Positions 4,792-20,159 of a stretch of 64,000 nt of DNA are shown here, one piece after another. Within the stretch, counting starts at the first letter, position 1, and each line of letters begins with the position of its first letter. This DNA comes from Flavobacterium palustre (lineage in GTDB: Bacteria > Bacteroidota > Bacteroidia > Flavobacteriales > Flavobacteriaceae), in contig NZ_BMGA01000001.1 of the NCBI RefSeq assembly GCF_014639535.1, positions 372,001 through 436,000 of the forward strand. The letters run 5' to 3'. The translations under genes and the position numbers were made by a program. Under the pieces are notes generated by a model, which made no database searches, was not told the DNA's origin, and was given only the letters and a program-made list of their open reading frames with translations.

Positions 4792-4870
4792 TGAGATTTT
4801 GAATTCTTAACATCATTTCCTGAGTTCTCACTCCTTTAAAAAAGAATTTAGTTTTTTTAATTAATTGCAT

Positions 4871-4910
4871 AAAAAAAACCTCGAAAACCATAGTGTTTTC
4901 GAGGTTTTTT
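4871..4910. terminator. Bidirectional terminator between the GH32-like gene and tRNA-Ser
   Basis: A perfect 10-bp stem, CCTCGAAAAC / GTTTTCGAGG, with a 6-nt loop (4889-4894), is flanked by an A-run on the left and a T-run on the right. It can end transcripts from the plus-strand gene stopping at 4791 and from the minus-strand tRNA. Confidence 0.85.
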
Positions 4911-4923
4911 GCTTTTTATCTAG

Positions 4924-5010
4924 CAGAGAGAAAGGGATTCGAACCCTCGATACAGTTACCCATATACTAGCTTTCCAGGCTAGCTCCTTCAACCACTCGG
5001 ACACCTCTCT
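4924..5010 (-). tRNA. tRNA-Ser(GGA)
   Basis: Read on the minus strand, 87 nt fold as a class II tRNA. The acceptor stem AGAGAGG pairs with TCTCTCT (last pair G-T), with discriminator G at 4924. The anticodon stem CTAGC/GCTAG holds loop CTGGAAA, anticodon GGA. A long variable arm follows, and the T-loop is TTCGAAT. The long variable arm and discriminator G fit serine. The 3' CCA is not encoded. Reading frames that cross this locus on both strands are not genes. Confidence 0.95.
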
Positions 5011-5067
5011 ATTTCGGATTGCAAATAACATTAAAAAATCTGAATTAGAAAAGCCAAATTGCATTTT

Positions 5068-6096: not shown

Positions 6097-7222
6097 GGGT
6101 ATATTTCAATTTATTGACCACCGGATTAGCATACATGGCTAATATTCCCTGGAAGGCAATAGGATTTGAAGCATCAATTCGTTTTTCTAATCTACGAACA
6201 AAAACAGCCTTTTCATCCTCAGTATATTGATTCGAATATTTATCAGTATTATTCAAAATATCGTAAGCAATATAATTCGTTGGCCACAATTTATAGCTGG
6301 TCAAAATCGAATCGTCAATGGCTTGTGCCAAAGCCTGAATCTGTTTATTCACATTGTCGTTTTCGGCAACAATAGCATCAATTTCTGTATCTAGAACTTT
6401 TCCGATATGGATAAAAATACGTTTTTTAGGACCTAAAGCACCGCTTAAAATGGTCATAAAATCCTCATTCTCCTGTTTTACATATACTTCATTATTTGCT
6501 TCAGCCAGTAATTGAGGCATTTTTAAAGCATCGGTAGGATCATATTCATAGGAAATGGAAACCGGAACAATCTTCAGTTTTTTGAAATAATCCATCAGAT
6601 TCGCTTCATCAGAAGCCATTCCTATCATTTTTAAAACGCCCGGATTAGTAGCATCATTTCCGTCTTTTGTTCGTCCTTCGCGTTGTGCAATCCAAACCGA
6701 GCGGTTTTCGTGCTGCAACAACTGACTGATATACTCTGATAATGTTTTAGAACTTTGCAGCATCTCTCTAGGACCTAAACCTCGTTGTACCAGGAAATTT
6801 CGGTTCAACTTAGCCAAAACATTCAAGAAAGGCTGTTTGACCAAATTATCTCCAATTGCCGAAGCCGTCATCACCAAATCATGTTCAAATAAAATAGCAT
6901 TTAACAAAGTGGTATCTAAAAGAATATCGCGATGATTAGAAATAAACAAATACGGAGTATTAGGCTCTAAGTGTTCAAAACCCGAAGTCGACAAACCTTC
7001 GGAACTTTTTTCTAATACTTTTTGAACTGATTGGTAAATAAAATTACACTGAAAATCACGAATAGAATGCGTTTTCAATAATTGTTCTTTCCAAACTTCA
7101 TCATCAACATCAGGGAAAGAAAAATTCATCAACGACTTCAACATAGGATGATGAAGTACTTTTCTTATCGCTTTATTTATTTCGGTATCATAATAGGGCC
7201 GAATCTCGTCAAACTTTTGCAT
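6080..7222 (-). CDS. Glycerolipid acyltransferase (PlsC/PlsB-like)
   Basis: 380 aa. The acyltransferase block I is NHRDILLD at 96-103. Block III appears as QREGRTKDGND (180-190), and a block IV-like VPVSISYEYDP follows. The spacing from His97 to Asp103 is five residues, not the four of the textbook HX4D box; Asp99 is an alternative. The protein probably acylates a glycerophosphate or lysophospholipid in membrane lipid synthesis at the cytoplasmic face. It has no signal peptide. Its 3' end overlaps the ansA start by 17 bp. The exact acceptor and acyl donor are unknown. Confidence 0.75.
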   Translation of the reverse strand: MQKFDEIRPYYDTEINKAIRKVLHHPMLKSLMNFSFPDVDDEVWKEQLLKTHSIRDFQCNFIYQSVQKVLEKSSEGLSTSGFEHLEPNTPYLFISNHRDILLDTTLLNAILFEHDLVMTASAIGDNLVKQPFLNVLAKLNRNFLVQRGLGPREMLQSSKTLSEYISQLLQHENRSVWIAQREGRTKDGNDATNPGVLKMIGMASDEANLMDYFKKLKIVPVSISYEYDPTDALKMPQLLAEANNEVYVKQENEDFMTILSGALGPKKRIFIHIGKVLDTEIDAIVAENDNVNKQIQALAQAIDDSILTSYKLWPTNYIAYDILNNTDKYSNQYTEDEKAVFVRRLEKRIDASNPIAFQGILAMYANPVVNKLKYTHELKD

Positions 7223-7283
7223 TTATGGTATTATTAGAAAAACAAATGAACAAAAAAAATATTAAATTTTAGCGAATTCTATT

Positions 7284-8063
7284 TTAAATCCCAAAAATTG
7301 CTTTCGAATTATCAGTAGTAATTCTGGCGATTTCACCTGCAGAAATACCGTAAATATTTGATAACTTATCAATTACATTTACCAGATAACTACTTTCATT
7401 TCTTTTGCCCCTAAAAGGAACCGGAGCCAAATAAGGCGCATCGGTTTCTAAAACAATATATTTGATATCAATTTGATTCAAAAACTGATCGATTTTACCA
7501 TTTTTAAAAGTAACTACTCCGCCAATTCCTAATTTCATATTATAAGACAAAGCCTGTAAAGCCTGCTCATAAGTCCCCGAAAAACAATGAAAAATTCCAA
7601 ATAAATCAGCCGATTTTTCTTCTTCTAAAACTTCAAAAACTTCATTAAAAGCTTCACGACAATGAATCACAATAGGTAATTTATATTCTTTTGCCAGTTG
7701 GATTTGTCTTTTAAAAGCCAATTGCTGTTCTTTCAAATGGGTTTTGTCCCAGTATAAATCGACTCCAATTTCGCCAATAGCATAGAATTTTCTCTTTTTC
7801 AGTTCTTCTTCTACATGCGTTAATTCGTCCAGATAATTGTCTTTTATATGAGTAGGATGCACACCTGTCATCAAAAAAATATGCTCTGGATATTTGGCTT
7901 CCAAATCATACATAGCTTCGGTATAAGCCGAATCGATAGCAGGAATAAAAAAACGAGTGACGCCAGCCGCTAAAGCACGCTGCATCATTTCGTCCCTGTC
8001 CTGATCAAATTCTTCGCTGTATAAATGGGTGTGGGTATCGGTAATTATGGGTTTTGTTTCCAA
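7284..8063 (-). CDS. TatD-family metal-dependent deoxyribonuclease
   Basis: 259 aa from a TTG start at 8063. The metal-binding residues are in place: His11 and His13 (THTHLY), Glu98 (GEIGVD), His134 (IHCREAF), His159 (FHCFSG) and Asp208 (ETDAPYL). Family members are 3'-5' DNases acting in repair or DNA turnover. I chose TTG because the family begins a few residues before the THTH motif. The upstream in-frame ATG at 8123 would add 20 residues (MCCLCESLCN...) encoded by an AT-rich CGCAAAG-type repeat that looks non-coding. A start at 8123 cannot be excluded from sequence alone. Confidence 0.85.
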   Translation of the reverse strand: METKPIITDTHTHLYSEEFDQDRDEMMQRALAAGVTRFFIPAIDSAYTEAMYDLEAKYPEHIFLMTGVHPTHIKDNYLDELTHVEEELKKRKFYAIGEIGVDLYWDKTHLKEQQLAFKRQIQLAKEYKLPIVIHCREAFNEVFEVLEEEKSADLFGIFHCFSGTYEQALQALSYNMKLGIGGVVTFKNGKIDQFLNQIDIKYIVLETDAPYLAPVPFRGKRNESSYLVNVIDKLSNIYGISAGEIARITTDNSKAIFGI

Positions 8064-8188
8064 GTGGTTTTCTTTAGGACGCAAAATTAAGTTATTACAC
8101 AAAGATTCGCAAAGACAACACAAAGTAGCGCAAAGAAATAATAAAGTGATTTAAACTTTTTACTAAACGTATCCTCTATAAAATAACA

Positions 8189-8340
8189 CGTCCCATAGGG
8201 ACGAACTGTTTATAGAAAACAAATTATTTACAAAAAAAGCTCCGTTAGGAGCGAACTGTATAATTAACAGACCGCTCCTAACGGAGCTAATATCCGGGGA
8301 ACACATAAATTTCTAGAAACAGGATGCTCCTCTGGAGCAT
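8189..8340. repeat. Cluster of four short palindromes (REP-like)
   Basis: Four small inverted repeats lie in a 404-bp gene-free stretch (8124-8527): CGTCCC-ATA-GGGACG at 8189-8203, GCTCC-GTTA-GGAGC at 8239-8252, its exact reverse complement GCTCC-TAAC-GGAGC at 8274-8287, and ATGCTCC-TCT-GGAGCAT at 8324-8340. The first two are each followed by GAACTGT, so they look like copies of one module. The second and third can pair with each other to form a larger 14-bp-stem hairpin. The flanks carry degenerate CGCAAA/CTTTG repeats. No gene is seen. Confidence 0.7.
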
Positions 8341-8451
8341 TATCAAAAAAGTTTAAATAAGTTCAATACAATTTTCGCAAATCTTCGCAAATCTTTGCAA
8401 ACCATATCTTTAATCTAACTCTGACAACAACATCACATAAGATTTACAAAT

Positions 8452-8489
8452 AAAAAAAGCCACACAAAAACAATAAATCTTTGTGTGGC
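8452..8489 (-). terminator. Terminator of the sigma/TPR operon
   Basis: The stem GCCACACAAA / TTTGTGTGGC (8459-8468 and 8480-8489) is followed on the minus strand by seven T. It lies 39 bp downstream of the TPR protein stop at 8528. Confidence 0.85.
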
Positions 8490-8527
8490 TTCGTGAAAAA
8501 TCTTTGTGAATCTTTGTGATATAACCC

Positions 8528-9250
8528 TTAATCCAGCTTATCCAACAACTCATGAACCTTATCATAATGTTCATAATCCGACGGAATCGTCAACAGGATT
8601 TCTTTGCAGGATTGATAGTCTTTCTGTTTTAATTTAGCCAAAGCCAAAGCATAAATCGCTTTATTTTTATAAATAGAATTACCTGATTTGATTTCGTTAA
8701 ACACCGTTTCCGCTTTTTGAATCTGATTATCTTCTAATAAAGAAACACCATAAAAATATTGAATTTCTGCCGATTTATTTTCTTTTAAAACAGTTTCGAA
8801 AAACGGAATCGCGGCTTTGTAATCCTTAGCATTAAAAGCGGTTTCAGCTTGTTTTAAATTTTCGGATACAGTTCCTCTTTCGGTTAAATAAGCATTTTCG
8901 TATTGATTGTATTCTTCAAAACCAGGTTTGGAAGGATTAAACAAAAACAGTCCCAGCAAAAGCACCACCGAAGCGGCAATCATGTACATCCACGGTTTTA
9001 TTGAAATCACCTTGGTTTTTTCGGGTTCAAAATGTTCTTTCGAAATCGTTTTTAGATTTGCTGTAAAAGCATCTCTGTCGGCTGCAAAATCAAATTTGGT
9101 TTCCAACTGGATTTGGACTTCCTTGAAAGTTTCAAATTCAGATGCCAATTCGTGGTTTTCTGAAAGCTTTTTTTCAAAATCCAATCGGGCTTCGTCTGTC
9201 AATTCGCCTTGAAGGTATTGGTCGAACAGGATATATTTTTCTTCTTTCAT
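8528..9250 (-). CDS. Membrane-anchored TPR protein, candidate anti-sigma factor
   Basis: 240 aa. The N-terminal ~80 residues are helical and charged (FDQYLQGELTDEARLDFEKK), resembling the cytoplasmic sigma-binding end of anti-sigma factors, but without the zinc-finger Cys/His set. One membrane segment lies at about 88-105 (WMYMIAASVVLLLGLFLF). The rest (about 120-240) is helical and TPR-like, predicted to lie in the periplasm. The gene starts 5 bp after the ECF sigma gene on the same strand, the standard sigma/anti-sigma arrangement. The anti-sigma role is inference from topology and pairing; a plain TPR scaffold is the alternative. Confidence 0.7.
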   Translation of the reverse strand: MKEEKYILFDQYLQGELTDEARLDFEKKLSENHELASEFETFKEVQIQLETKFDFAADRDAFTANLKTISKEHFEPEKTKVISIKPWMYMIAASVVLLLGLFLFNPSKPGFEEYNQYENAYLTERGTVSENLKQAETAFNAKDYKAAIPFFETVLKENKSAEIQYFYGVSLLEDNQIQKAETVFNEIKSGNSIYKNKAIYALALAKLKQKDYQSCKEILLTIPSDYEHYDKVHELLDKLD

Positions 9251-9255
9251 GGCTA

Positions 9256-9837
9256 CTATTTTTTTAATGATTTAAAACTACTGTGTTCCTGAATCCATTG
9301 CGTTAATTGTCCTGTACACAAAGATTTTTTCTTTCGAACATAACCATAGGTTACATTGAGTTTTTCGGCTACTTCTTCCATCGATTTTAAAGTAAAACTC
9401 CACTTTAAAACTTCCTGACATTTTTCGCCTAATCTTTGAAACATCGCATCAAAAAGCTGTTGTTTCTCTTCAAATACTTCTGTTTGCGACACCATCTCGG
9501 CTGTGGGTTCATTAGTAGATGTAAAATCATCGGAAATTGTTACCGCTTTATTCGAAGTTTTTTTGAGTTCGTTGAGCCATTTTCTTTTGCATAACAAAAA
9601 AAAATAAGCATCAAATGGACAAGTCAATTGTAATTGCTTGGCTTTTGCCTGATTGAACAGTAAAATCATAATTTCCTGTACCACATCCTGCGCCTGATCT
9701 TCATCGCCTGAATTGTTCCTGATATAAGAAACCACCTTGGGAACAAACTTCTTATAAATAGATCGAATTATCGCCGAATCATTATTAGCCAATCCTTCAA
9801 TTAAATACTGATCAGGATGTACAGTGTTTTTTGCCAT
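9256..9837 (-). CDS. ECF-type RNA polymerase sigma-70 factor
   Basis: 193 aa. Region 2 covers about 24-92 (KFVPKVVSYIRNNSGDEDQAQDVVQEIM, then the WLNEL end). Region 4 with its helix-turn-helix is near the C-terminus (SMEEVAEKLNVTYGYVRKKK). There are no region 1 or 3 domains, so it is an ECF sigma factor. It is co-transcribed with the membrane TPR protein 5 bp downstream. It is divergent from the lipoprotein/PKD/CHAT genes, with three direct repeats in the shared control region. A plausible role is to turn on that divergent set when the membrane protein releases it; the target promoters are not proven. Confidence 0.88.
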   Translation of the reverse strand: MAKNTVHPDQYLIEGLANNDSAIIRSIYKKFVPKVVSYIRNNSGDEDQAQDVVQEIMILLFNQAKAKQLQLTCPFDAYFFLLCKRKWLNELKKTSNKAVTISDDFTSTNEPTAEMVSQTEVFEEKQQLFDAMFQRLGEKCQEVLKWSFTLKSMEEVAEKLNVTYGYVRKKKSLCTGQLTQWIQEHSSFKSLKK

Positions 9838-9868
9838 GGAAAACTTTTTTTCGAAAATACTAAAAAAT

Positions 9869-10084
9869 GGGGTAACATTTTAAAACCGGATTGATATACA
9901 ACTGTAAACGTTCTTTAACATTTGAAAAAATAAAGCTGTTTGAAAAAAATCTGAAAATAATTCAGATTAAAGGGTAACAATTCAAAACACATCTTGATAT
10001 ACTCATATAAAACAAGAACAAAAAAATATTTTGAAAAACAAGGGTAACAATTTAAAACCCGAATTGATATAACAGTATAAACAA
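9869..10084 (+). promoter_or_regulatory. Three ~40-bp direct repeats in the sigma/lipoprotein divergent region
   Basis: Copies start at 9870, 9972 and 10042, all in the plus orientation. Each begins GGGTAACA, continues with a TTnAAAAC block, then 4-5 variable bases, then TTGATATA, and ends near TATAAAC or TGTAAAC. The invariant boxes GGGTAAC and TTGATATA are separated by 14, 15 and 15 nt. The last copy ends about 40 bp before the lipoprotein ATG at 10123. This could be a set of promoters for the divergent ECF factor or triplicated operator sites. Weak TTTGAAAAA similarity after copies 1 and 2 suggests that they arose by duplication. Confidence 0.65.
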
Positions 10085-10122
10085 CGAAAATCATTTTAAA
10101 CAATAATTAAAATCAAGAAATC

Positions 10123-11097
10123 ATGAGAACAAATTTTAAAACCATCGGACTTTTATTTTTAGCAGCAATTTCATTGGTAAGCTGCGAAAACGAGAACAAC
10201 GAAAACACGCCGGCAACAGCGGCAGAATTTGCAGATGTAAGACAAGCTGCCTTAGACAAAATCACTCAGGAATTTACCATTAAAGCCGAAGATGGTGCCA
10301 CAACCTTAACTTCTGAAAACGGTGTAAAAATTACCATCAACGGAAACTGCTTAACCAAAGACGGAAACCCTGTAACCGGCGACGTAAAAATTGAATATGT
10401 AGAACTTTTTGACAAAGGAAACATGTTAGTAACTAACAAGCCTACAATGGGAATTATGGGAGATGGAAATAGAAATTTATTAATCTCAGGAGGCGAATTC
10501 TTTATCAAAGCCACTCAAAACGGCAAAGAATTAGCAACAACTTGTAATATTACTTTACTTGTTCCGGGATCACTTACAGACGGCGTTGACAATGCTATGA
10601 CCTTATGGAAAGGAATTATTGATGACGAAGGAAACTTAGCCTGGGAAGATGCCCGTAAAGCCGATGGTACAAACGGTGGAAAAGGCGGTGTACAAGCCGA
10701 AGGAAACAATTATTATGTAAGTTTTGGAAACTTTGGATGGACTAATGTGGATAAATTCTACAGCGACCCAAGACCTAAAACTACTATCCTTGTTGAAGCT
10801 CCGGAAGGATATGACAATAACAACTGTGCCATCTACCTGTCTTATGATGGCGAAGGAACAAATGCACTTGCTAAATTGGACACTTACACCGCCGAAGGAT
10901 TATTTAGCGAACACTACGGTCAAATTCCGGTGGGTCTTGCTTGCCACATTATCTTTGCAACCGAAGACAATGGAAACTGGAGATACGCCATAAAAGGAGT
11001 GACTATTCAGGCCAATGATGTATATACTTTTACAATGGCTGAAACCACCGTAGGAACCGAAGCCCAATTAATTGCCGCAATCAATGCGATCCAATAA
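10123..11097 (+). CDS. Secreted lipoprotein of unknown function
   Basis: 324 aa. The lipoprotein signal ends at Cys22 (LAAISLVSCENEN). The mature part is beta-rich with a clear GDVKIEYVELFDKGNMLVTN segment followed by LISGGEFFIKATQNGKEL. I recognise this pattern from other secreted Bacteroidota proteins but cannot name a function. It is the first gene downstream of the three direct repeats and divergent from the ECF sigma gene, so it is the best candidate direct target. A terminator separates it from the PKD gene. No catalytic motif is visible. Confidence 0.7.
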   Translation: MRTNFKTIGLLFLAAISLVSCENENNENTPATAAEFADVRQAALDKITQEFTIKAEDGATTLTSENGVKITINGNCLTKDGNPVTGDVKIEYVELFDKGNMLVTNKPTMGIMGDGNRNLLISGGEFFIKATQNGKELATTCNITLLVPGSLTDGVDNAMTLWKGIIDDEGNLAWEDARKADGTNGGKGGVQAEGNNYYVSFGNFGWTNVDKFYSDPRPKTTILVEAPEGYDNNNCAIYLSYDGEGTNALAKLDTYTAEGLFSEHYGQIPVGLACHIIFATEDNGNWRYAIKGVTIQANDVYTFTMAETTVGTEAQLIAAINAIQ

Positions 11098-11115
11098 AGA
11101 TTCCCAAATTTAAAT

Positions 11116-11150
11116 TCTGAAAAAAGTGGTGATTTGCTCATCACTTTTTT
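11116..11150 (+). terminator. Terminator after the lipoprotein gene
   Basis: The stem AAAAAAGTGGTGA / TCATCACTTTTTT, with one G-T pair, spans 11120-11150 and ends in a T-run. It lies 22 bp after the stop codon. Confidence 0.8.
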
Positions 11151-11221
11151 CTATTTTTAAAAGTTTTTTAACCTTAACCAATTAAGAATTAGTAGCTATC
11201 CCTATAAACCAAAAACTGACC

Positions 11222-13177
11222 ATGAGACCACTACTATCTATGCTCTTTCTTCTTTGTTCTTTGCTCTTATTTTCCCAAAAAAAAGTCAAAGATACCGTTA
11301 CCCGAAGAGCCACTATAACTTATAATCAAAATGGAAATAGTGTTTCATACAAACCCGAAACACCGCCACTAATCCCCATTGCCGGTGCACCAAAACCCAG
11401 TTTTTCTTATCTATGGGAATTTGGCGATGGTACTTACAGCAAGGCTCCCGAACCTAAACATACTTATAAGAACAAAGGAACTTACAACACCCGACTAACC
11501 GTAACCAACAATTACGACAACGGAAAACCGCCCGCTACCCGACCAAAAAAAGTAGTTGTTAATGACATATCAGATAAAAATTTTGACGAAATAGCCTCCG
11601 TTGCAGACCAAAATGGTTTTGCCCTTCAAAAAAACTGCGATCCAATCCCTGATCAGGAAATGGAGCTAATCCTAAGTTATCAAAATCTGGAGAACTATGT
11701 TACAAGCGGAAAAATCTATCTGTTTTACAACGAAAAACAATTCAAAGACAACAACTTTGAATTAAGCAGTTTCCGAACCTATGCCGGCGAAAGAGAAGTA
11801 AAAGAAAACAACTTCGCAGCTGTTAACGACCTCGATAAAACAAATACTTATTTAGCCTCAAACGACAATTCTTTTCCAATAAAAAAATACCTAAACACCA
11901 CCACCGAAGAAGATTTGGACGCGAGTTTAGCCGAAGCACATAAAACCTTCAAAAACGTTTCAATCTTAGAATTTGACGAAGCTAATCCGCAGGAAACCCG
12001 CAATGTTTTTTATACTTTCAAAACCACTCCCGAAATGCTGAAAGACACCAGTGCTACCATAACCATGCGCGGAATTTATGTCCCAAATCGCAGTTATAAA
12101 AATCATAAGGTAAAAAATCTGGAAATGGAAATTGTTACTTCCCACGACCCCAACAAAATGGGTTCTAACGGAAGTTTCATGAATTACCGCTTGGTGCGTT
12201 TTAAAAGGGTCAATTTCAAAACCCGCTTTCAAAACAACGGCGAAGGTCCGGCAAGAATGATTCGTCTGGAAACTGATATTCCGGATATGTTTGACAAAAA
12301 AACATTCCAAATTGAAGACATGTATCCCAAATGCCCCATTTGCCCTAAAGACGAAATCCCAACTGTGAGTTGTCTGGATACCATTATCAAACAAAAACAA
12401 ATCTTCTTTACGTTTAAAAATATTTACCTGCCGGGAAGCGAACAAAAAAATGTAAAAGAAAAAGACAGTACCAAGGGTTTTGTGAAATATTCGATGAAAT
12501 TCAACGAAGACTTTCACAAGGTAAATACCCGAAGCAGAACCGCCATTATTTTCGACAAAAACGAACCCATAATCACCAACTACGCCACTACCCGATTCCT
12601 TCCCGGAATTTCCATTGGTGCCAAAGCCGGTTATAATTTTTATCCAAACTTAGATAAATCCAGAAGTTATTTTGTGGGTGCTACTATTTCGCCGTACAAA
12701 TCCTATCGTCTCTATTGGCAGGCCGAATTAATTAATAGTATCCATGATTTCAATTCAGCCATTAACATTACTACAAGTTTTGTAACCACTAGCAATGGAG
12801 TTCGTCAACCTGTCCGAACTACAAAAACCACAGCCTATTCTAATTTCAACAATGAAATTCCGTTACTGGTTCGTTACAATATCAACAATTTCATTGGTAT
12901 TGGTGCCGGAGTTCAAGCCAATATTAATGCTTCTGAAAAACAAGAGCAACATACGAAAATCGAATATTTCGAATCAGATAAAATAGATATGGCACCTTAT
13001 AAAACAGAAGAAAACAGCATCTCCAACAGTAAAACCTTTAGCAATTTAAAAACCGGATTACTGTTTGATTTAACCGTTGGTGCAGCCCGCATCGGCCCGA
13101 GTTTAGGAGCGCGCTATGTGATGAATTTCAAAGAAAATTTCAATTATGTTCAAGTGTATGGAATATGGAAGTTTTAG
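11222..13177 (+). CDS. PKD-domain outer-membrane protein with C-terminal beta-barrel
   Basis: 651 aa. A signal peptide covers about 1-18 (LLSMLFLLCSLLLFSQ). A PKD domain spans about 45-115, with its WEFGDG motif at 65-70 and HTYKNKGTY at 80-88. The middle contains a segment starting SHDPNKM with RVNFKTRFQNNGEGPARMIRL split across it, like the DPN...R(F)QN(T)G repeats of secreted Bacteroidota proteins. The C-terminal ~200 residues alternate in the style of an outer-membrane barrel and end in Phe (VYGIWKF). It may display a sensing or adhesion domain on an outer-membrane anchor. It lies directly upstream of the CHAT gene, with only a 90-bp inverted-repeat element between. Confidence 0.75.
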   Translation: MRPLLSMLFLLCSLLLFSQKKVKDTVTRRATITYNQNGNSVSYKPETPPLIPIAGAPKPSFSYLWEFGDGTYSKAPEPKHTYKNKGTYNTRLTVTNNYDNGKPPATRPKKVVVNDISDKNFDEIASVADQNGFALQKNCDPIPDQEMELILSYQNLENYVTSGKIYLFYNEKQFKDNNFELSSFRTYAGEREVKENNFAAVNDLDKTNTYLASNDNSFPIKKYLNTTTEEDLDASLAEAHKTFKNVSILEFDEANPQETRNVFYTFKTTPEMLKDTSATITMRGIYVPNRSYKNHKVKNLEMEIVTSHDPNKMGSNGSFMNYRLVRFKRVNFKTRFQNNGEGPARMIRLETDIPDMFDKKTFQIEDMYPKCPICPKDEIPTVSCLDTIIKQKQIFFTFKNIYLPGSEQKNVKEKDSTKGFVKYSMKFNEDFHKVNTRSRTAIIFDKNEPIITNYATTRFLPGISIGAKAGYNFYPNLDKSRSYFVGATISPYKSYRLYWQAELINSIHDFNSAINITTSFVTTSNGVRQPVRTTKTTAYSNFNNEIPLLVRYNINNFIGIGAGVQANINASEKQEQHTKIEYFESDKIDMAPYKTEENSISNSKTFSNLKTGLLFDLTVGAARIGPSLGARYVMNFKENFNYVQVYGIWKF

Positions 13178-13211
13178 TTTTGTTTAAACCACATAAGTCA
13201 CAAAAGTTAAT

Positions 13212-13301
13212 CTTGTCATTCCGACGAAGGAGGACACGAGCGATAGCGAACTGGCGAAGCAATCTCATCAAGTGGGATTCCTCCTTCGTCGGAATGACAA
13301 G
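13212..13301. mobile_element. 90-bp inverted-repeat (MITE-like) element
   Basis: A perfect 23-bp inverted repeat has its left arm at 13212-13234 (core GTCATTCCGACGAAGG) and right arm at 13279-13301 (core CCTTCGTCGGAATGAC), enclosing 44 bp. It carries no gene. Elements of the GTCATTCCGACGAAGG type are known to me as recurring intergenic repeats in flavobacterial genomes, which is recollection. It lies between the PKD and CHAT genes, and its right arm contains the ATG (13294-13296) that is the likely CHAT start. Confidence 0.8.
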
Positions 13302-15900
13302 CTGTGTTAAAACTATTTTCACTACATTAATTCTGTTGATAACACAATTTACTTTTGCACAAAGCATCACTTTAGAAGATAAAATCTACAATACCGTTGA
13401 TGCTTTTGTTGCCAATCCCAATGAAGAAAGTTTAAAAAAACTGGAGTCTTTCAGTAAAAACATCTCAACGCTTACAAAAAACAAAAACGAACTGCTGGCA
13501 TTGGTTGTTTTACACTGCAACAAAGCCTATTACGAAAATCAATTTAACCAACTTCAAAAAGCCGTTTCCAGCTATGAAACCGCTTGGAAAACCTACCAAA
13601 AATACCATCTCAAAGACTATGATATAGTCGAATTCTGCCTGAAACCTTTGGGCAATTTATACACTATCATCGGCGATTATGACAATGCCGAAAACACCAT
13701 CAAACAATATTACTACATTGCTACCCAACAAAAAAACCAACAGCAACAATATGCTGCCGTACTCAATTTATCGAATGTATATCAAAATTCGGGACGCATA
13801 AATGAGGCGATTGATTTACTTGAAAAAACTATTCGAAACGAAAAATTATCGAATACTCAAAAAGGGATTTTATTGAATAATTTGGGGAACAATTACCTCT
13901 TAAGAAATATAAATAAAGATCCTTCTAACGCCGAAAACTCCTTTTTAAAAGCAATTCCTCTATTAAAACAAGACAAATCACAACAGGAAGCATTAATAAA
14001 CAGCTATCTCAATTTATACAAACTTAGCATCAATTTTCGTCGAAATGAAGCATTGAATTATTACGAAAAAGCAAGGGTGATTTTTGAAAATCTACACAAC
14101 AAAAGTCCAAGGTACAAGGCTCAATTCTATTTAGAAAAAATTCATTTACTATTAGAACAAAACAAATTAACAGAAACTCAAACCGTACTCAAAACCGTTT
14201 TTAAAACCTTAATCCCGAATTATTCTATACAAAAAGGCATTCTGCCAAAAAAGAATGACCTCTACGCCGAAACTATCTTACTTGATGCGCTTGACTTTCA
14301 AGCCGAACTGTTTAGCATACAAAACAGACCAAAAAAAGCATTGGAAAGTTATACTCTTGCTTTTCATATTGAAGATTTATTTCAAAACCTCATCGTTTAT
14401 GAAAATTCAAAAATTATCACCCAAACGCGAAATCGAAAACGCATTGAAAAGTGTGTTGCGATTTACCAATCTTTATTCGAAAAAGAAAAAAATCAAAGTT
14501 ACATCGAAGATGCATTTCAATTGGTCGAAAAAACAAAGTCTGTTGTTTTAAAGGAGCGAGTAAAGAACAATTTCAAAACTTCTTTCAAAGAAAAAGCACT
14601 ATTACAACAGTTGGAAAATCAAAATACCACTATCCTCAAAGAACAACAAAAAGGAGATTTGGCTAACATCGAAACAATAAATAAAGCGATCCAAAAGCAA
14701 AATGAATTGATGTTGCAACTAAAACAAATTCAAGTTAAAACCTCTGAAAAATTGAATAAAAATATCAATTTGAATGATTTATATACCCAATTAAAAAAAG
14801 ACGATGCTATTATGGTTGAATATTTTTGTGGAACAGAAAAAGCATATTCATTTACTATTCAAAACAGCAAAATTTCTATGAGACCTTTTTGCTACGACAT
14901 TTCTATGATATGTAACACTCCTATTATAACATTTATAAGCTTTTTTCATAATGCAAATACAATTACTGAATATCTTGATTTATTCAAAAAAGAAGCTTTT
15001 GCGACTTATAGAGTATTGCAACTTCCAAAAAAAACTAACCACAAAAACCTCATCATCATTCCCGATGGAATTTTGAATTTCCTTCCTTTTGAAGCTTTAA
15101 TCACAAAAGAATCTTCAACAACTAATTTTGCCCAAATGCATTATTTGTTGAACGATTACAACATTGGTTATCAAAATTCGGCTCAGTTTTATTTGGCTGC
15201 AGACCAAAATAAAAAACAGCAAAAAGAAACCGTTTTAGGCATTTTTCCCGTTTTCGAAAATACACCTTATACACTGACTTATTCGAAAGACGAATTGCAT
15301 TCGATTCAGAAGAATTTCAACGGAAAGTATTTTCAAAATACGACTGCTACTTTTAAAAATTTCAAAAAAAATGCTGCTGATTACGGTATTTTACATCTTT
15401 CCACCCACGCCTCATCAGGCGATATCGAAACTCCGGCAAGCATTAAATTTTACGATCAGGAAATCCTGTATTCCGAATTATATCATCTAAATCTTAACCC
15501 TGATTTGGTGGTTCTAAGTGCCTGTGAAACCGGAATCGGCAAACTATTCAAAGGCGAAGGAAGCATGAGCATTGCCCGCGGATTTCAATTTGCCGGAGCG
15601 CAAAACCTGTTGTTTTCGTTATGGAAAGTCAACGATTACACCACTTCGATTTTTATGGATTCTTTTTATCAAAATATCAAAAACGGTCAATCTTATCTGG
15701 AAGCCAATGCGAACGCTAAAAGGGATTTCTTAAAAAACTCCGCTGTTTCCAACGCTAAAAAATCACCTTATTACTGGAGTGCTTTTGTGTATTATGGTGA
15801 TTTACAGACCAACAATGAATCAAATACTTATATTTTTTATATATTTGGTATATTGATTTTAATTGGTTTACTTTTGATTTTCAATCGCTACAGAAAATGA
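13294..15900 (+). CDS. Secreted TPR-CHAT protease with C-terminal membrane anchor
   Basis: 868 aa from ATG 13294. A signal peptide covers about 1-23 (TIFTTLILLITQFTFAQ). Helical TPR-type repeats fill about 60-430, then a coiled segment. The caspase-like CHAT domain runs about 560-835, with the catalytic dyad His705 (LHLSTHAS) and Cys744 (VLSACETG). A membrane helix lies at about 845-863, followed by basic NRYRK. The predicted layout is a periplasmic cysteine protease tethered to the inner membrane. The longer frame from 13165 would place 43 residues before the signal peptide, including the inverted-repeat element, so I reject it. No later in-frame ATG precedes the signal peptide. The TGA overlaps the next gene's ATG. 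Confidence 0.85.
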   Translation: MTSCVKTIFTTLILLITQFTFAQSITLEDKIYNTVDAFVANPNEESLKKLESFSKNISTLTKNKNELLALVVLHCNKAYYENQFNQLQKAVSSYETAWKTYQKYHLKDYDIVEFCLKPLGNLYTIIGDYDNAENTIKQYYYIATQQKNQQQQYAAVLNLSNVYQNSGRINEAIDLLEKTIRNEKLSNTQKGILLNNLGNNYLLRNINKDPSNAENSFLKAIPLLKQDKSQQEALINSYLNLYKLSINFRRNEALNYYEKARVIFENLHNKSPRYKAQFYLEKIHLLLEQNKLTETQTVLKTVFKTLIPNYSIQKGILPKKNDLYAETILLDALDFQAELFSIQNRPKKALESYTLAFHIEDLFQNLIVYENSKIITQTRNRKRIEKCVAIYQSLFEKEKNQSYIEDAFQLVEKTKSVVLKERVKNNFKTSFKEKALLQQLENQNTTILKEQQKGDLANIETINKAIQKQNELMLQLKQIQVKTSEKLNKNINLNDLYTQLKKDDAIMVEYFCGTEKAYSFTIQNSKISMRPFCYDISMICNTPIITFISFFHNANTITEYLDLFKKEAFATYRVLQLPKKTNHKNLIIIPDGILNFLPFEALITKESSTTNFAQMHYLLNDYNIGYQNSAQFYLAADQNKKQQKETVLGIFPVFENTPYTLTYSKDELHSIQKNFNGKYFQNTTATFKNFKKNAADYGILHLSTHASSGDIETPASIKFYDQEILYSELYHLNLNPDLVVLSACETGIGKLFKGEGSMSIARGFQFAGAQNLLFSLWKVNDYTTSIFMDSFYQNIKNGQSYLEANANAKRDFLKNSAVSNAKKSPYYWSAFVYYGDLQTNNESNTYIFYIFGILILIGLLLIFNRYRK

Positions 15901-16334
15901 AAAACCTACACGAAATCCTAAAAAAGCATCAATACAAAAAAGTCAAATTTAAGATTACCAAAACCCAACATCTATTAATAAAAGCCAAAATAAACGGAGT
16001 TAAAGGGAATTTTATTTTAGACACAGGAGCTTCTAATAGCTGCGTAGGCTTTGAACACATTGAATTATTTAATTTAAACGCCGAAGATTCCAAAACCAGA
16101 GCTTCGGGAGCGGGAGCAACAGGAATGTTGACACAAACGGCTACAGCTAATAAATTAGAGCTGGGAACATGGAAAAACCACAATTTTGATTTGATAATTT
16201 TTGACATGTCTCATGTCAATGAAGCCTTGACAGCCTACAAATCAAAAACGGTAGATGGAATTATTGGCGCTGATGTATTATTAAAAGGAAAAGCCATAAT
16301 AGATTATGCCAATTACTATTTGTATTTGCTATAA
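15897..16334 (+). CDS. Retropepsin-like aspartic protease (clan AA)
   Basis: 145 aa, single-lobe retropepsin size. The active-site motif LDTGAS lies at 41-46 with Asp42. A downstream GIIGADVL (121-128) matches the hydrophobic-hydrophobic-Gly motif that packs under the active site. Such proteins act as dimers. No signal peptide is visible, so the protein is probably cytoplasmic. Its ATG overlaps the CHAT TGA (ATGA at 15897-15900), a strong sign of translational coupling. No reverse transcriptase or integrase is nearby, so it is not part of a retroelement. The substrate is unknown; a protein of the same cluster is a reasonable guess only. Confidence 0.8.
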   Translation: MKNLHEILKKHQYKKVKFKITKTQHLLIKAKINGVKGNFILDTGASNSCVGFEHIELFNLNAEDSKTRASGAGATGMLTQTATANKLELGTWKNHNFDLIIFDMSHVNEALTAYKSKTVDGIIGADVLLKGKAIIDYANYYLYLL

Positions 16335-16355
16335 CCAACCTTAAACCAAAATAAC

Positions 16356-17120
16356 ATGAAAAACAACTACTTTAAAGCGGCAGCTTTTGCCCTGACAATG
16401 CTTTTGTTTTCCTGTTCTACCCAAGACTTAACAGACGAAAGTCAAGACCCTTCGACAACGACTAATTCAAGTACTACCAAAATGTCAAAAATGGCCCCTA
16501 CGAAACCTACAGCTCCAAAAATTTGGGAATTTAATGATTTAAATGAATGGGAAGATGCCACCCAGGTAGGAAATCCAAATTATTTTATTGATACAAACAA
16601 TGGTTACCTTCATCTTTTTACCAATGCCAATACCTGGGACAGAACCAAAGTAAAATCGGTTGCTACCTACGCTACCGGAAGTTATTCCTGGAGAGTTTAT
16701 GTACCGACAATGGGGGTAGGTGATATGGCAAGTATTGGTGCTTTTTTATACAATAATGATACGCACGAACTCGATTTTGAAATTGGCTACGGCAATCGGG
16801 CAATCCGTCAGCAATTAAATGCCGCTTCAGATGAGCTAATTGTTTATAATACTTCACAAGCGAATCCGTATCATTCATTTCAAAGCAAAATCAAAAGAGA
16901 ACAATGGTACACGCTAACCATTGAATTGGCCTTAAATTCCAAGAAAAAATACGTTACTACCTGGAAAATTGACAATGTAGTTTTATCATCCGCAACTCTT
17001 ACTTACGGCACAGCAACTAAATTTAAAATTTTCTGTAGTGTCGAAAATCTAACTTTTATAGGAGATCATATTCCTTATACACAAAACTACGCCTTATTCG
17101 ACTGGGTAGAGTTCAAATAA
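16356..17120 (+). CDS. GH16-like lipoprotein
   Basis: 254 aa. The lipoprotein signal ends at Cys20 (ALTMLLFSCS), then a Ser/Thr-rich linker. The body looks like a concanavalin-type jelly roll. The segment HELDFEIGYG carries E-x-D-x-E, the active-site pattern of GH16 enzymes such as lichenases, and WKIDNVVLSS resembles the late GH16 strand W-x-(V/I)-D-x-x-x-(V/I). It could be a beta-glucanase, or a carbohydrate-binding protein that kept the fold. It starts 21 bp after the retropepsin gene and may be read on the same transcript. The family assignment is moderate. Confidence 0.55.
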   Translation: MKNNYFKAAAFALTMLLFSCSTQDLTDESQDPSTTTNSSTTKMSKMAPTKPTAPKIWEFNDLNEWEDATQVGNPNYFIDTNNGYLHLFTNANTWDRTKVKSVATYATGSYSWRVYVPTMGVGDMASIGAFLYNNDTHELDFEIGYGNRAIRQQLNAASDELIVYNTSQANPYHSFQSKIKREQWYTLTIELALNSKKKYVTTWKIDNVVLSSATLTYGTATKFKIFCSVENLTFIGDHIPYTQNYALFDWVEFK

Positions 17121-17193
17121 AATCATCACCTTTATTTAACCGCAGATTCGCAAATTAAAAAAAATAAACCTGTGGTTAATTTTTTAAAACTAT

Positions 17194-17985
17194 TTATTTA
17201 CTTTTTGATTTTTTCTTCGAATGAGATTCTTTTGGATTTTCTCCTAAAGCCCACAAAAGTCCGCCTGTAAGATGCTGAACAAATACAGGATCGCCATAAT
17301 CCTTACTGTCATGTCCAAGAGCCGTATAAAACACCCTGCCTCCTTCAAATTCATGGCACCAGGCCAATGGTAAATAATCTCCAAAAGTACGCCCCGGATA
17401 GACCTCTTTTTCACTGTCTTTCACTGTTCGCATATCGGCAGCTAAAAGGATCTGATTATTAGGATTAAATTCATTCATATAGTAACATTCATCTTCTTTT
17501 TTCCATGTTTCACCTAACATCGAAGTCGCTGGATGATTTTTATTAATCACTTTTATTTCGAAAGGCTGAAAAGCCGGATGCCTTTTAAATTTTCCTCCTA
17601 CCATTGCTGCGTACCAAGGCCAGTCTTTTTCAGAATCAGATGCACTGTGAACACCTACAAAAGCGCCTCCACGATGAATATAATCAACCAAGGCCTGTTT
17701 TTGCTCTTCGGTATCAAAAATATCATTACAGGTATTCGAAAAAACCAGACAGCTGTATTTTGCCAGATTTTCAGTATTCATTACTGCCGGATCATCAGAA
17801 ACATCCACAATCAGATTATTTGCTTCAGCAATTTTTTTCCAGGCCTCCACACTGAAAGGAATATTTTTATGCACATAGCCTTTGCCGTTTTTGGTATAAA
17901 CCAAAATTCGTTTTTTAGCCGGCGGATTTGCAAAAACTGAACCTAAACCCAAAACAACGGTGAGCAATAGTAATTTGATTTTCAT
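17194..17985 (-). CDS. Secreted ThuA-like (glutamine-amidotransferase-fold) protein
   Basis: 263 aa with a signal peptide (LLLLTVVLGLGSVFA). ThuA-type features are seen in order: RILVYTKNGKGYVH near the start, YSCLVFSNTCNDIF, GGAFVGVHSAS (the nucleophile-elbow region), NHPATSML, and PLAWCHEFEGGRVFYTALGHD. The C-terminus is Lys/Ser-rich. ThuA-like proteins are found in sugar-use loci, but their reaction is generally unknown. The gene faces the GH16-like gene tail to tail, with 73 bp between. Confidence 0.8.
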   Translation of the reverse strand: MKIKLLLLTVVLGLGSVFANPPAKKRILVYTKNGKGYVHKNIPFSVEAWKKIAEANNLIVDVSDDPAVMNTENLAKYSCLVFSNTCNDIFDTEEQKQALVDYIHRGGAFVGVHSASDSEKDWPWYAAMVGGKFKRHPAFQPFEIKVINKNHPATSMLGETWKKEDECYYMNEFNPNNQILLAADMRTVKDSEKEVYPGRTFGDYLPLAWCHEFEGGRVFYTALGHDSKDYGDPVFVQHLTGGLLWALGENPKESHSKKKSKSK

Positions 17986-18014
17986 ATTTTTCTTTTTATA
18001 TCATTTTATAATAA

Positions 18015-18431
18015 TTAACCGAATTCCTGAATAATATAATTTTCTAATTCTTTCATCACATTATCCAAATCGTGTTTCACTCTAAAATCAGAAATCCTGT
18101 AAACATGTAATCCTAAATTAGTCAAAAACACCTCTCTCATGGTATCGTATTCTTGTTTACCATCATGACTCGAACCATCAATTTCTATAATCAACCCAAG
18201 CGACTTTACATAAAAATCAACAATAAAACTACCTATAATTCGCTGCCTGTCAAAATCAACAGACCAAAAAGTATTATTTCGTACTTGTCTCCAAAAAATA
18301 ACTTCCGACAAAACTCCCGCTTTTCGCAAGGCTTTTGCTCTGCCAGATAATGCTTTATTACGCGGTAATATCCCGACACTTCTCCTGTAAATAGGTTTCT
18401 CATGAATATAAGTAACAATTTCAGGTTTCAT
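18015..18431 (-). CDS. DUF559 / Vsr-like endonuclease-domain protein
   Basis: 138 aa from ATG 18431. The restriction-endonuclease-like core is visible: RQRIIGSFIVDFYV with Asp73, then LIIEIDGSSHD with Glu83 and Asp85, the D...ExD metal site of the Vsr/DUF559 fold. An upstream in-frame ATG at 18527 would add 32 residues translated from the palindromic element next door (FPLLRRGARRAGW); that extension is not credible as protein. The role is unknown; related proteins are small nucleases often found beside repeats. It is bounded upstream by a 193-bp inverted-repeat element. Confidence 0.75.
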   Translation of the reverse strand: MKPEIVTYIHEKPIYRRSVGILPRNKALSGRAKALRKAGVLSEVIFWRQVRNNTFWSVDFDRQRIIGSFIVDFYVKSLGLIIEIDGSSHDGKQEYDTMREVFLTNLGLHVYRISDFRVKHDLDNVMKELENYIIQEFG

Positions 18432-18465
18432 AAGCTGATTTGTTTTTTGTTTCAAGTATAGTAAC

Positions 18466-18658
18466 CACCCCGCCCTACGGGCACCCCTCCTGAGGAGGGG
18501 AAATTTAGCTTTCTTAAAAAAACGCATTAAAAATAAACGCTATACTTAACCTTCTCCACTAATCCTGAGAAGGAAAAACTTAGTTTTCTTAAAAAAACGT
18601 ATTATAAATAAACGTCACCTTCCCCTCTTTTTAAGAGGGGTGCCCGTAGGGCGGGGTG
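18466..18658. mobile_element. 193-bp element with 24-bp terminal inverted repeats (MITE-like)
   Basis: The ends are perfect 24-bp inverted repeats: left 18466-18489 beginning CACCCCGCCCTACGGG, right 18635-18658 ending CCCGTAGGGCGGGGTG. Inside each end sits a second hairpin (CCCCTC-ctga-GAGGGG style at 18484-18500, and 18622-18640). Between them is a 40-bp direct repeat at 18501-18540 and 18576-18615 with 35 of 40 matches. There is no coding capacity. It fills most of the 324-bp gap between the DUF559 gene and the E2 terminator. Confidence 0.8.
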
Positions 18659-18687
18659 TTATTTACGCATAATACCATTTCCGAATA

Positions 18688-18733
18688 TAAAAAGAAAATC
18701 CCAAATTCCTTAAAAATTGGAATTTGGGATTTT
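18688..18733 (-). terminator. Terminator after the 2-oxoglutarate dehydrogenase E2 gene
   Basis: A 15-bp stem, AAAATCCCAAATTCC / GGAATTTGGGATTTT (18695-18709 and 18719-18733), is followed on the minus strand by a T-rich tract. It lies 22 bp downstream of the E2 stop. Confidence 0.85.
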
Positions 18734-18755
18734 AAATATTTTGAATTCTCTTTTT

Positions 18756-19970
18756 TTACAATTCAAATGCTTTTTTAGGGTTTCCACCGCAAAGCAATTC
18801 AACCGGGTTTTCTAAAGCTTCTTTAACAGCAACTAAGAAACCAACAGACTCACGACCGTCGATAATTCTGTGGTCATAAGATAAAGCGATGTACATCATT
18901 GGATGAATTTCAACCTTACCGTTTACAGCAATAGGACGCTCGATAATGTTATGCATTCCCAAGATTCCAGACTGTGGAGGGTTGATGATTGGCGTAGACA
19001 ACATAGAACCAAATACACCACCATTAGTGATTGTAAAAGTACCACCTGTCATATCATCAACAGTAATTTGACCATCACGAGCTCTTAAAGCCAATCTTTT
19101 GATTTCAGCCTCAATTCCACGGAATGTTAAATTCTCAGCGTTACGAACAACAGGAACCATTAATCCTTTAGGTCCGGAAACCGCGATAGAGATATCACAG
19201 AAATCAAAACCAATTTTGTGGTCACCGTCCATCATAGAGTTTACATCAGGGAACAATTCTAAAGCTCTTGTTACCGCTTTTGTAAAGAATGACATATATC
19301 CTAAACCTACACCACCATGTTTTGCTTTGAATGCGTCTTTGTATTCATTACGCAATTGGTTGATAGGTGTCATGTTTACTTCATTGAAAGTAGTCAACAT
19401 GGCTGTTTCGTTTTTAGCAGCAACTAATCTTTCTGCCACTTTACGACGTAGCATTGATAATTTAGTACGCTCCACACCACGGCTTCCACCTGTAGGAGTT
19501 CCCATTGATGGAACAGCATTTACTGCATCGTCTTTAGTGATTCTTCCACCTTTACCAGTTCCAGTTACAGTTGCGGGTTCGATATTTTTCTCGTCTAATA
19601 TTTTTTTAGCTGCCGGAGATGGAGTTCCAGTTGCATAAGTAGCTGCTGGTGCTGCAGGAGCCGCTGGCGCAGGTGCTGCTTTTGGCGCTTCAGCTGCAGG
19701 TGCTGGCGCTGGCGCAGATCCAGATGGTTTAGCTGCAGAAGTATCAATATGACAAACTACTGCTCCTACTGCTACTGCATCACCTTCTTCTGCTTTAAGA
19801 GTAATGATTCCACTTGCTTCTGCAGGTAATTCTAATGTAGCTTTATCAGAGTCAACCTCAGCAATTGCTTGGTCTTTTTCTACATAATCTCCGTCTTTTA
19901 CTAACCAAGTTGCAATCTCAACTTCTTTAATTGATTCCCCTGGTGATGGGACTTTCATTTCTAAAACCAT
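18756..19970 (-). CDS. sucB: 2-oxoglutarate dehydrogenase E2, dihydrolipoyl succinyltransferase
   Basis: 404 aa. The lipoyl domain carries Lys43 in DSDKATLE. An Ala/Pro-rich linker (about 75-110) follows, then the peripheral subunit-binding domain ([10 protein letters not shown]...GRITKDDA), then the catalytic domain ending with His367 and Asp371 in DHRIIDG. It transfers the succinyl group to CoA in the TCA cycle. The E1 gene lies upstream on the same strand, 189 bp away, so the pair is probably one operon. The length and domain order are normal. Confidence 0.95.
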
Positions 19971-20041
19971 GTCCTATTATTTTAAATTATGAATTTTATT
20001 TTTTTTAATTGTAAACTGTTATCTCTTTTGTTTTTTTATTC

Positions 20042-20116
20042 TAGCCCTGATAGCAGCGGCATCCTTTTTCTTTTTCCTTTAAAAAGAAAAAGATACAGCG
20101 TATAGCAGGAATAGCT
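20042..20116. repeat. Intergenic palindromic repeat between sucA and sucB
   Basis: A long imperfect hairpin has outer parts CCTGATAGCAGCGG and CGTATAGCAGG that share AGC-AG boxes. The inner arms TTTTTCTTTTT and AAAAAGAAAAA pair around a short loop. Sequences of this type recur between genes in Flavobacterium, as far as I recall. It lies in the 189-bp gap between E1 and E2 and could slow or process the transcript. Confidence 0.5.
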
Positions 20117-20159
20117 TCTAAAAAATATTTTATTGCAATTGCTTCTTTTCTCGCAATGA

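Follow-up and report, generated by a model that had tools for sequence, protein, structure and literature searches.

The window analyzed here is a stretch of 64,000 nucleotides from Flavobacterium palustre, in which five linked genes occupy approximately 8 kb: tprM and sig on the reverse strand and, divergent from them, lipo, pkd and chat on the forward strand. An initial annotation of this region had proposed a six-gene module, and ORFs for all six genes are present where it placed them. The sig gene (9256..9837, reverse strand) is located 5 bp upstream of tprM and encodes a short protein (193 amino acids) that matches Sigma70_r2 and TIGR02937 above their cut-offs and sigma region 4 below cut-off; its identification as an ECF-type sigma factor stands. 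The tprM gene (8528..9250, reverse strand) encodes a protein with a predicted topology of an N-terminal cytoplasmic domain, one transmembrane (TM) segment at about residues 88-104, and a periplasmic linker followed by TPR. This ORF lies 5 bp downstream of sig. Its earlier label, membrane TPR protein, is better replaced by that of a putative single-pass anti-sigma-like protein. Two NCBIfam anti-sigma models match 17/22 and 15/22 of the TprM orthologues, with a best E-value of ~1e-6; the scores of the window TprM, the only protein for which scores are listed, are far below the curated cut-offs. A PDB sequence search with TprM returned, among the matches listed, weak TPR ones. We infer that TprM inhibits sig.

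The lipo gene (10123..11097, forward strand) encodes a conserved lipoprotein without a known family and, as annotated, is divergent from the sigma pair. Its 20 aligned orthologues show 49-96% identity to the window protein, for which the AlphaFold2 model has a mean pLDDT of 71. A terminator-like stem (11119-11151) separates lipo from pkd, which counts against the model proposed below. The pkd gene (11222..13177, forward strand) encodes an exported protein with matches to PKD, DUF7619 and DUF7849 domains; the PKD assignment is thereby upheld, and the outer-membrane location given with it is perhaps correct.

The product of chat (13294..15900, forward strand, with the start codon taken at 13294) consists of a signal peptide, a TPR region, a CHAT protease domain and a C-terminal TM segment with a basic tail. 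It is the sole CHAT match in the source genome, and a strong one (Pfam PF12770, E 1.1e-46; score 160 bits, cut-off 24), with the His-Cys dyad present. The codons for His705 (15406-15408) and Cys744 (15523-15525), which we take to be the catalytic pair, are both intact. In the alignments the Cys is conserved in 64/64 rows and the His in 55/55 aligned rows, a further 9 rows being unaligned at the His. Among the 60 matches listed from a PDB sequence search with CHAT, all were to the TPR part. The ends of the chat orthologues, read by eye (16 of the 23 are in alignment A1), show a signal peptide and, at the C-terminus, a hydrophobic stretch followed by a basic tail; CHAT, previously described as secreted, is therefore better read as a predicted inner-membrane-anchored, periplasmic protein. 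The predicted compartments are thus given by a signal peptide and C-terminal TM segment for CHAT, and by a single TM segment with the linker beyond it for TprM. In the window chat is not adjacent to tprM, a second feature that counts against the model.

Linkage was assessed in 100 genomes, the source genome among them. Orthologues of chat and pkd (E below 1e-100) occur in an identical set of 23 genomes. Orthologues of sig occur in those 23 and as a fragment in one more, G049, while tprM is found in 22 of the 23 and in G049, the exception being G031, where the contig ends. Among the genomes compared the cassette is an all-or-none block, and homologues of tprM, sig, lipo, pkd and chat are linked in the relatives; F. 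johnsoniae strain CI04 (locus L171) is one carrier. Within the genus the site is fixed, between tatD and a gene for a retropepsin-like aspartic protease (clan AA), and the presence and absence of the cassette force at least 5 changes on a tree of the flanks, which covers all but 4 of 41 loci. The retropepsin gene (15897..16334, forward strand) overlaps chat by 4 bp and adjoins it in every same-genus cassette locus. However, 31 genomes without the cassette also carry it, and it is beside tatD in 18 of the 19 cassette-less loci fetched (drawn from the 29 cassette-less genomes of the genus in which a retropepsin was matched). We therefore rejected it as a member; it is a resident neighbor, conserved next to the cassette, and the module has one protease rather than the two that had been claimed. 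The lipoprotein gene that follows (16356..17120, forward strand), initially labeled GH16-like, was likewise rejected, since it is sporadic: it occurs in only 11/80 loci and at two cassette-less sites. No glycoside hydrolase match to its product was found in Pfam, only PH_20 at E 0.012. These loci were taken as the top 80 among 272 confirmed stretches, and some of them come from the same organisms as the 100-genome set. With these two genes set aside, the reported combination is a real, conserved module in which a transcription switch and a protease stand with a likely envelope-facing membrane protein. A description of this module was found nowhere in the literature covered by our limited searches. 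PMC7159879 makes no mention of CHAT, sigma factor, anti-sigma or ECF as whole words; in PMC8055020 the terms CHAT domain, sigma factor and tetratricopeptide each occur a single time.

Tandem copies of an ECF-like promoter motif, GGGTAACA-N14-TTGATATA, precede lipo. The window has three promoter-like copies, all on the forward strand and all absent from the initial annotation: copy 1 (9870..9898), which reads GGGTAACA-N13-TTGATATA, copy 2 (9972..10001), which has the N14 spacer, and copy 3 (10042..10071), 51 bp ahead of the lipo start codon. In many relatives copy 1 precedes a gene for a membrane protein of 98-101 amino acids; such a gene was not seen after copy 1 in the window. The motif is present in 22/23 cassette genomes and in G049, which retains a cassette remnant, versus 0/76 other genomes, and the reversed motif gave no matches. 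The motif thus co-occurs with sig across genomes, and we infer that sig reads these promoters. In the 80-locus set the spacer is 14 in 139/139 motif copies, where 12 to 15 was allowed; three long loci of this set (L130, L157 and L162) contain no exact copy. None of the 139 copies is directed toward sig and all are directed away from it, an arrangement that gives no sign of the self-activation usual for ECF factors. Exact sites distal to the cassette number 11, and each is followed at 24-160 bp by an ORF with a product that, judged by eye, looks exported; among these products are an L,D-transpeptidase and a protein with RCC1 repeats and a type IX secretion tail. A relaxed form of the promoter pattern is noisier: its reversed control matched in 6/24 genomes, and the pattern itself gave one match in the cassette-less genome G010 and a few more away from the cassette. 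Sigma-70 sites were considered as an account of the intergenic copies and rejected, the region giving 34 against 29.2 in shuffles in a scan not made for this phylum.

A second conserved feature lies in the TprM linker. Following the membrane segment, an Arg is invariant in 73/73 orthologues, at a near-fixed distance ahead of the TPR, and is followed by Gly (55) or Ser (18). In the window the linker reads LTERG, with Arg125-Gly126 encoded at 8873..8878 on the reverse strand, and this is where CHAT is predicted to cut. We extended the count to TM partners of CHAT loci across the phylum, using 38 partner pairs, 36 with a TM segment, from 60 loci plus L054, L056 and L057. R[SG] is present in the linker of 23/36, against a mean of 7.8 and a maximum of 16 in 1000 shuffles; two of these 23 matches (L254 and L258) are at odd distances and may be due to chance. 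In a tighter linker stretch the motif occurs in 19/28 partners, a count reached in 0/2000 shuffles, and it is present in 4/4 TM partners from loci outside the motif definition. It is found in 16/21 partners close to CHAT versus 7/15 further off, and in 0/11 TM partners of other sigma genes of the source genome. These control partners look mostly like anti-sigmas of other kinds, so the Arg could be a subfamily trait rather than a cleavage site. The remaining 13/36 TM partners lack R[SG], and L220 has Met where Arg is expected. L238 and L255 keep the motif though their periplasmic part, judged by eye in the alignment, is not TPR-like. Alignment A4 comprises 28 of the 38 partner pairs plus two orthologues.

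Related gene trios recur across Bacteroidota. We surveyed two sets of CHAT loci, 60 and 19, hand-picked from the best-scoring places listed and therefore not random draws; the first set is spread over families. An ECF sigma gene lies within approximately 7 kb on either side of CHAT in 33/60 loci and near CHAT in 5/19 loci of the second sample, whereas the expectation by chance is ~6%, based on 17 Sigma70_r2 matches in the 3.97-Mb source genome. Among same-genus control loci, 1/31 has an ECF sigma gene, namely the G049 remnant. The fetched stretch contains no ECF sigma gene in 27/60 and 14/19 loci, so CHAT often works without such a partner or with a distant one. Phylum-wide, CHAT is often tied to an anti-sigma gene, in both orientations, and the TM partner is within 300 bp of CHAT in 21/36 cases. 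Among 30 mostly phylum-wide partners, anti-sigma models match 9, 8 and 5, and zf-HC2 matches 3. In the first sample, 25 CHATs adjacent to a sigma gene were sorted by a crude hydropathy rule: 15 have a C-terminal TM segment, 11 a signal peptide and 6 neither, and export therefore cannot be assumed for every one of them. On the CHAT tree, sigma-adjacency labels were assigned by hand from the neighborhood survey; no clear acidic column separating sigma-linked from unlinked CHATs was found.

The promoter and linker motifs suggest a joint function for these genes, which the initial annotation had left open. We propose, with a probability of about 0.62, that they form an envelope signaling cassette in which CHAT cuts the TprM linker after Arg125, freeing sig for GGGTAACA-N14-TTGATATA promoters. 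In this model sig would be kept at the inner membrane by the anti-sigma TprM. The exported, inner-membrane-anchored TPR-CHAT would sense a signal, presumably periplasmic or from the outer membrane, either directly or by way of Lipo and PKD, and would then perform the site-1 cleavage of TprM (T-E-R|G/S). Further host proteolysis would free sig to transcribe lipo-pkd-chat and a few genes for exported proteins elsewhere. Since chat lies downstream of the promoters that sig is predicted to read, a positive loop would result. Besides the two features already named, this model has against it the CHAT loci that lack an ECF sigma gene, the sigma-adjacent CHATs with neither export feature, the TM partners without R[SG], the low anti-sigma scores of the window TprM, the orientation of all motif copies away from sig, and the three long loci that contain no exact copy.

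It could be argued instead that CHAT belongs among the products of the regulon and is not its switch: sig and TprM would sense by other means, while Lipo, PKD and CHAT would be envelope-repair or surface products, with CHAT cutting other periplasmic proteins. As expected of a target, chat is downstream of motif copies; the distal targets also look exported, and for many CHAT genes the neighborhood is free of sigma genes. Against this reading stand the phylum-wide tie of CHAT to anti-sigma genes, often within 300 bp, and the linker motif, which many partners at CHAT loci carry and none of the 11 controls does; we regard it as unlikely. Less probable still is that a different protease cuts the linker and that CHAT only travels along, in which case the Arg-Gly/Ser would be where that protease cuts or would cap the TPR structurally. 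In favor of this reading, the Arg lies at a near-fixed distance from the TPR, R[SG] also occurs in 7/15 partners whose CHAT is kilobases away, and cleavage of TprM by CHAT is itself predicted from sequence; against it, L238 and L255 keep the motif with a periplasmic part that is not TPR-like, and the motif is absent from 11/11 other TM partners of the source genome.

A conflict or defense module, with CHAT as a suicide effector released upon infection, is very improbable, even though a CHAT protease acts in CRISPR-linked signaling. No strong defense match of the module proteins was found in PADLOC-DB: CHAT matched a generic TPR model (E 1.3e-5) and PKD matched AriA (E 0.027), while the retropepsin neighbor matched PDC-M08B (E 6.6e-9). 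The fixed genus site, the all-or-none occurrence with its changes on the flank tree, the envelope-like distal targets and the predicted periplasmic location of CHAT all speak against this reading, and we rejected it on the PADLOC-DB result together with the site and regulon evidence.

The control of anti-sigma factors by proteolysis is already known, and DegS, for example, is a PDZ serine protease. To our knowledge, the site-1 proteases of anti-sigma factors described so far are of kinds other than CHAT. The envelope cassette resembles two systems quoted in PMC10028731, RseA-DegS-RseP-sigmaE of E. coli and RsiW-sigmaW of B. subtilis, in its putative membrane anti-sigma, ECF sigma, envelope-like targets and predicted periplasmic site-1 cut; it departs from them in the kind of site-1 protease predicted, a caspase-like CHAT cysteine enzyme expected to cut at Arg. 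Like PorXY-SigP, which controls type IX secretion in P. gingivalis (PMC7712824), it would place envelope functions of a Bacteroidota member under an ECF sigma factor, but the genes are different, and the available part of that paper does not mention a CHAT protease or membrane anti-sigma for PorXY-SigP. A close parallel in gene arrangement is the Craspase relay of type III-E CRISPR. According to PMC10028731, the TPR-CHAT protein Csx29 cuts Csx30, an inhibitor of the ECF sigma factor CASP-sigma, and CASP-sigma motifs occur in its own locus; here too a TPR-CHAT gene stands with genes for an ECF sigma factor and its putative inhibitor, and the promoter motifs that this factor is predicted to read are in the locus. 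Unlike in Craspase, the prediction for CHAT is export and anchoring in the membrane, the putative inhibitor is itself a membrane protein, the targets are envelope-like and the chromosomal site is fixed in the genus. No ORF as large as a Cas7-11/gRAMP effector was found in the ORF list or Pfam matches for positions 5000-22000. By analogy, the cassette is best explained as a putative envelope counterpart of the Csx29-Csx30-CASP-sigma relay.

More tentatively, exported TPR-CHATs across the phylum may form a class of Arg-specific site-1 proteases that act on single-pass anti-sigmas with a linker R|(S/G) and any sensor domain; the CRISPR relay would then be a cytosolic form recruited from a chromosomal signaling theme that is older and far more widespread. 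We consider this broader proposal possible but doubtful, and slightly less likely because neither export feature is seen in 6/25 sigma-adjacent CHATs. If true, a site-1 role for CHAT, a caspase/separase-like protease, outside of CRISPR would provide a function for many Bacteroidota CHATs, with the cut site predicted to the residue, and would hint at where the Craspase relay came from.

Within a set of 100 genomes (that of Flavobacterium palustre, 60 others of the genus and 39 of the order), 23 encode full orthologs of the TPR-CHAT protease gene chat (E below 1e-100), and the same 23 encode full orthologs of the PKD protein gene pkd. Orthologs of the ECF sigma factor gene sig occur in these 23 genomes, with a fragment in genome G049; tprM, for an anti-sigma-like membrane TPR protein, is found in 22 of them and in G049, the contig of G031 stopping before tprM. 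The lipoprotein gene lipo is present in 22 cassette genomes (not G047); G033 has a stray copy, and weaker relatives occur elsewhere. The order tprM-sig, divergent from lipo-pkd-chat, is held in the 22 fetched loci except in G031 (contig cut) and G047 (without lipo). Named loci (the best 80 of 272, nearly all titled Flavobacterium) include sig in 74, tprM in 72, lipo in 71 and pkd in 77. Several of the gaps are short contigs; locus L153 lacks sig, tprM and lipo although its contig is long, and lipo is absent from L129, L139 and L143. The gene positions and domains of the initial annotation agree with the ORF list and profile matches, and the linkage it proposed for homologs of these five genes is confirmed by co-occurrence in both sets. 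L052 carries a tandem pair of lipo copies (4377-6385), and the stray lipo of G033 (L073) lies close to a retropepsin gene, the other cassette genes being absent.

The downstream retropepsin gene, once counted in the same module, and the GH16-like lipoprotein gene that follows it do not belong to the cassette. The retropepsin gene (E below 1e-25) is found in 54/100 genomes, all 23 with the cassette and 31 without; it directly adjoins tatD (59 to 421 bp) in 18 of 19 fetched same-genus loci lacking the cassette. In the 19th, G049 (L067), the cassette is reduced to a single ORF between tatD and retropepsin, matching parts of sig and tprM, and a distal copy of the promoter-like motif described below persists before an L,D-transpeptidase-like ORF. 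This remnant suggests loss of the cassette. In G076, from a different family, cassette and retropepsin are on separate contigs. The GH16-like gene is present in 11 of the best 80 of 272 named loci and at two cassette-less sites. On a tree of flanking proteins from 37 of 41 loci, cassette presence needs 6 changes, 5 of them forced by well-supported branches; the cassette has therefore been gained or lost repeatedly at one site.

The motif GGGTAACA-N13/14-TTGATATA occurs three times between sig and lipo, at 9870, 9972 and 10042, always directed to lipo; 100 shuffles of the window gave no copy. Copies are present in the sig-lipo intergenic stretches of all 22 relatives, diverged in G025. The best 80 of 272 named loci yielded 139 exact copies. 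Every one has a spacer of 14 and lies on the lipo strand, none being directed toward sig; between sig and pkd, 70 loci have one to five exact copies and 10 have none, including the long loci L130, L157 and L162. Exact matches were found in 23/100 genomes (22 of the 23 with the cassette, plus G049) and in 0/76 of the remainder, with none for the reversed control; a relaxed pattern gave some background matches. In relatives, additional small genes in the sig-lipo interval have motif copies ahead of them too; they encode a membrane protein (98-101 aa), an exported protein (145-148 aa), a lipoprotein (194-199 aa) and, in G047, an OmpA-family protein of 623 aa. Each of the 11 distal exact copies is followed, 24-160 bp further on, by an ORF with a product that, judged by eye, looks exported. 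At such sites G006 and G053 have an L,D-transpeptidase, G042 and G049 similar-looking ORFs, and G040 an RCC1-repeat protein that bears a type IX secretion tail; the one distal exact copy in F. palustre (C14:2253) precedes an exported-looking 245 aa protein without a Pfam match. The motif is unlike the TAnnTTTG and CGT-box motifs of F. psychrophilum, as given in the available text of PMC9723704, and is a candidate cognate promoter of sig.

The chat product, with its start taken at 13294, begins with a signal peptide, continues into TPRs and a CHAT domain that holds His705 and Cys744, and ends in a hydrophobic C-terminal segment with a basic tail, which the full-length orthologs share. It is the only CHAT match in the genome. 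The signal peptide agrees with the earlier description as "secreted", while the C-terminal segment and tail point to an inner-membrane anchor; from these features together we predict a protein on the periplasmic side, tethered to the inner membrane. A palindrome of 86 bp (13214-13299), whose 21-bp inverted ends match perfectly, lies at the chat 5' end and provides the ATG, and relatives begin with different signal peptides; an arm of the palindrome, allowing up to 3 mismatches, has no further occurrence in the window. A terminator-like stem between lipo and pkd (11119-11151) might give lipo a higher level than pkd-chat. ORF 18015-18527 looks DUF559/Vsr-like, and its N-terminal part resembles translated repeat DNA.

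Across the phylum, CHAT occurs in 190 of the 392 genomes sampled. Two sets of CHAT loci were hand-picked from the best-scoring places; an ECF sigma gene turned up within about 7 kb in 33/60 of the first and 5/19 of the second, against an expected rate of ~6% per locus based on 17 Sigma70_r2 matches in the 3.97-Mb F. palustre genome (the number may be higher in other genomes). Among 31 control loci within the genus, one had such a gene, the G049 remnant. Of 36 membrane proteins encoded beside the sigma gene (TM partners), 21 are encoded within 300 bp of CHAT in an operon or convergent arrangement. Mapped onto a 70-domain CHAT tree, sigma adjacency requires 15 changes, at least 6 of them forced, versus 23.8 in shuffles; the sigma link is therefore old or arose more than once. 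Anti-sigma profiles matched among 30 partners were NF052375 (9), NF047528 (8), NF010501 (5) and zf-HC2 (3), and two anti-sigma models match 17/22 and 15/22 TprM orthologs. Speaking against a uniform picture, 6 of 25 sigma-adjacent CHATs in the first sample have neither a signal peptide nor a C-terminal TM by a crude hydropathy rule. In one clade (L239, L240, L246 and L250) the sigma gene lies about 2.5-3.3 kb from CHAT, and the anti-sigma-like protein has a common D-G-[VIL]-R-[SA] linker.

In TprM, the linker between TM and TPR contains an Arg (Arg125) in 73/73 orthologs. The next residue is Gly in 55 and Ser in 18, and the residue before the Arg is Glu in 71; positions 127-131 vary freely. 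Phylum-wide, R[SG] is present in the corresponding stretch of 23/36 TM partners (shuffled mean 7.8, maximum 16 in 1000) and absent from 13; 21 of the 23 matches lie 18-39 residues past the TM, and two are at odd distances. In a tighter stretch it occurs in 19/28 partners (shuffled mean 4.6; 0/2000 shuffles as high). L238 and L255, in which the sensor part looks unlike TPR, retain R[SG]; so do 4/4 TM partners of loci outside the motif definition (five pairs, one without a TM by the rule). It was found in 0/11 TM partners of the other 16 F. palustre sigma genes, one-genome controls that look mostly like other anti-sigma kinds. One of the 13 partners lacking the motif, a CHAT-linked anti-sigma-like protein (L220:4080-4805), has Met in place of the Arg. 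An Arg in the P1 position would be in keeping with a separase-like protease, and from sequence we predict Arg125 as the CHAT cut site.

The nearest described case, on the available text of PMC10028731, is the Csx29-Csx30-CASP-sigma relay of type III-E CRISPR (Craspase), in which a TPR-CHAT protease cleaves an ECF sigma inhibitor. Among the matches listed from open-licence papers, we recognized no description of a CHAT-sigma/anti-sigma cassette outside Craspase work; "CHAT domain" was absent among those listed (best 15 of 99) in one CHAT/sigma search. A TprM-CHAT-sig relay is the most likely reading of the cassette. TprM would keep sig at the membrane until an envelope signal, perhaps via Lipo or PKD, switches CHAT on. 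CHAT would then cleave TprM after Arg125, and additional proteolysis would release sig, which may boost lipo-pkd-chat and a few exported proteins.
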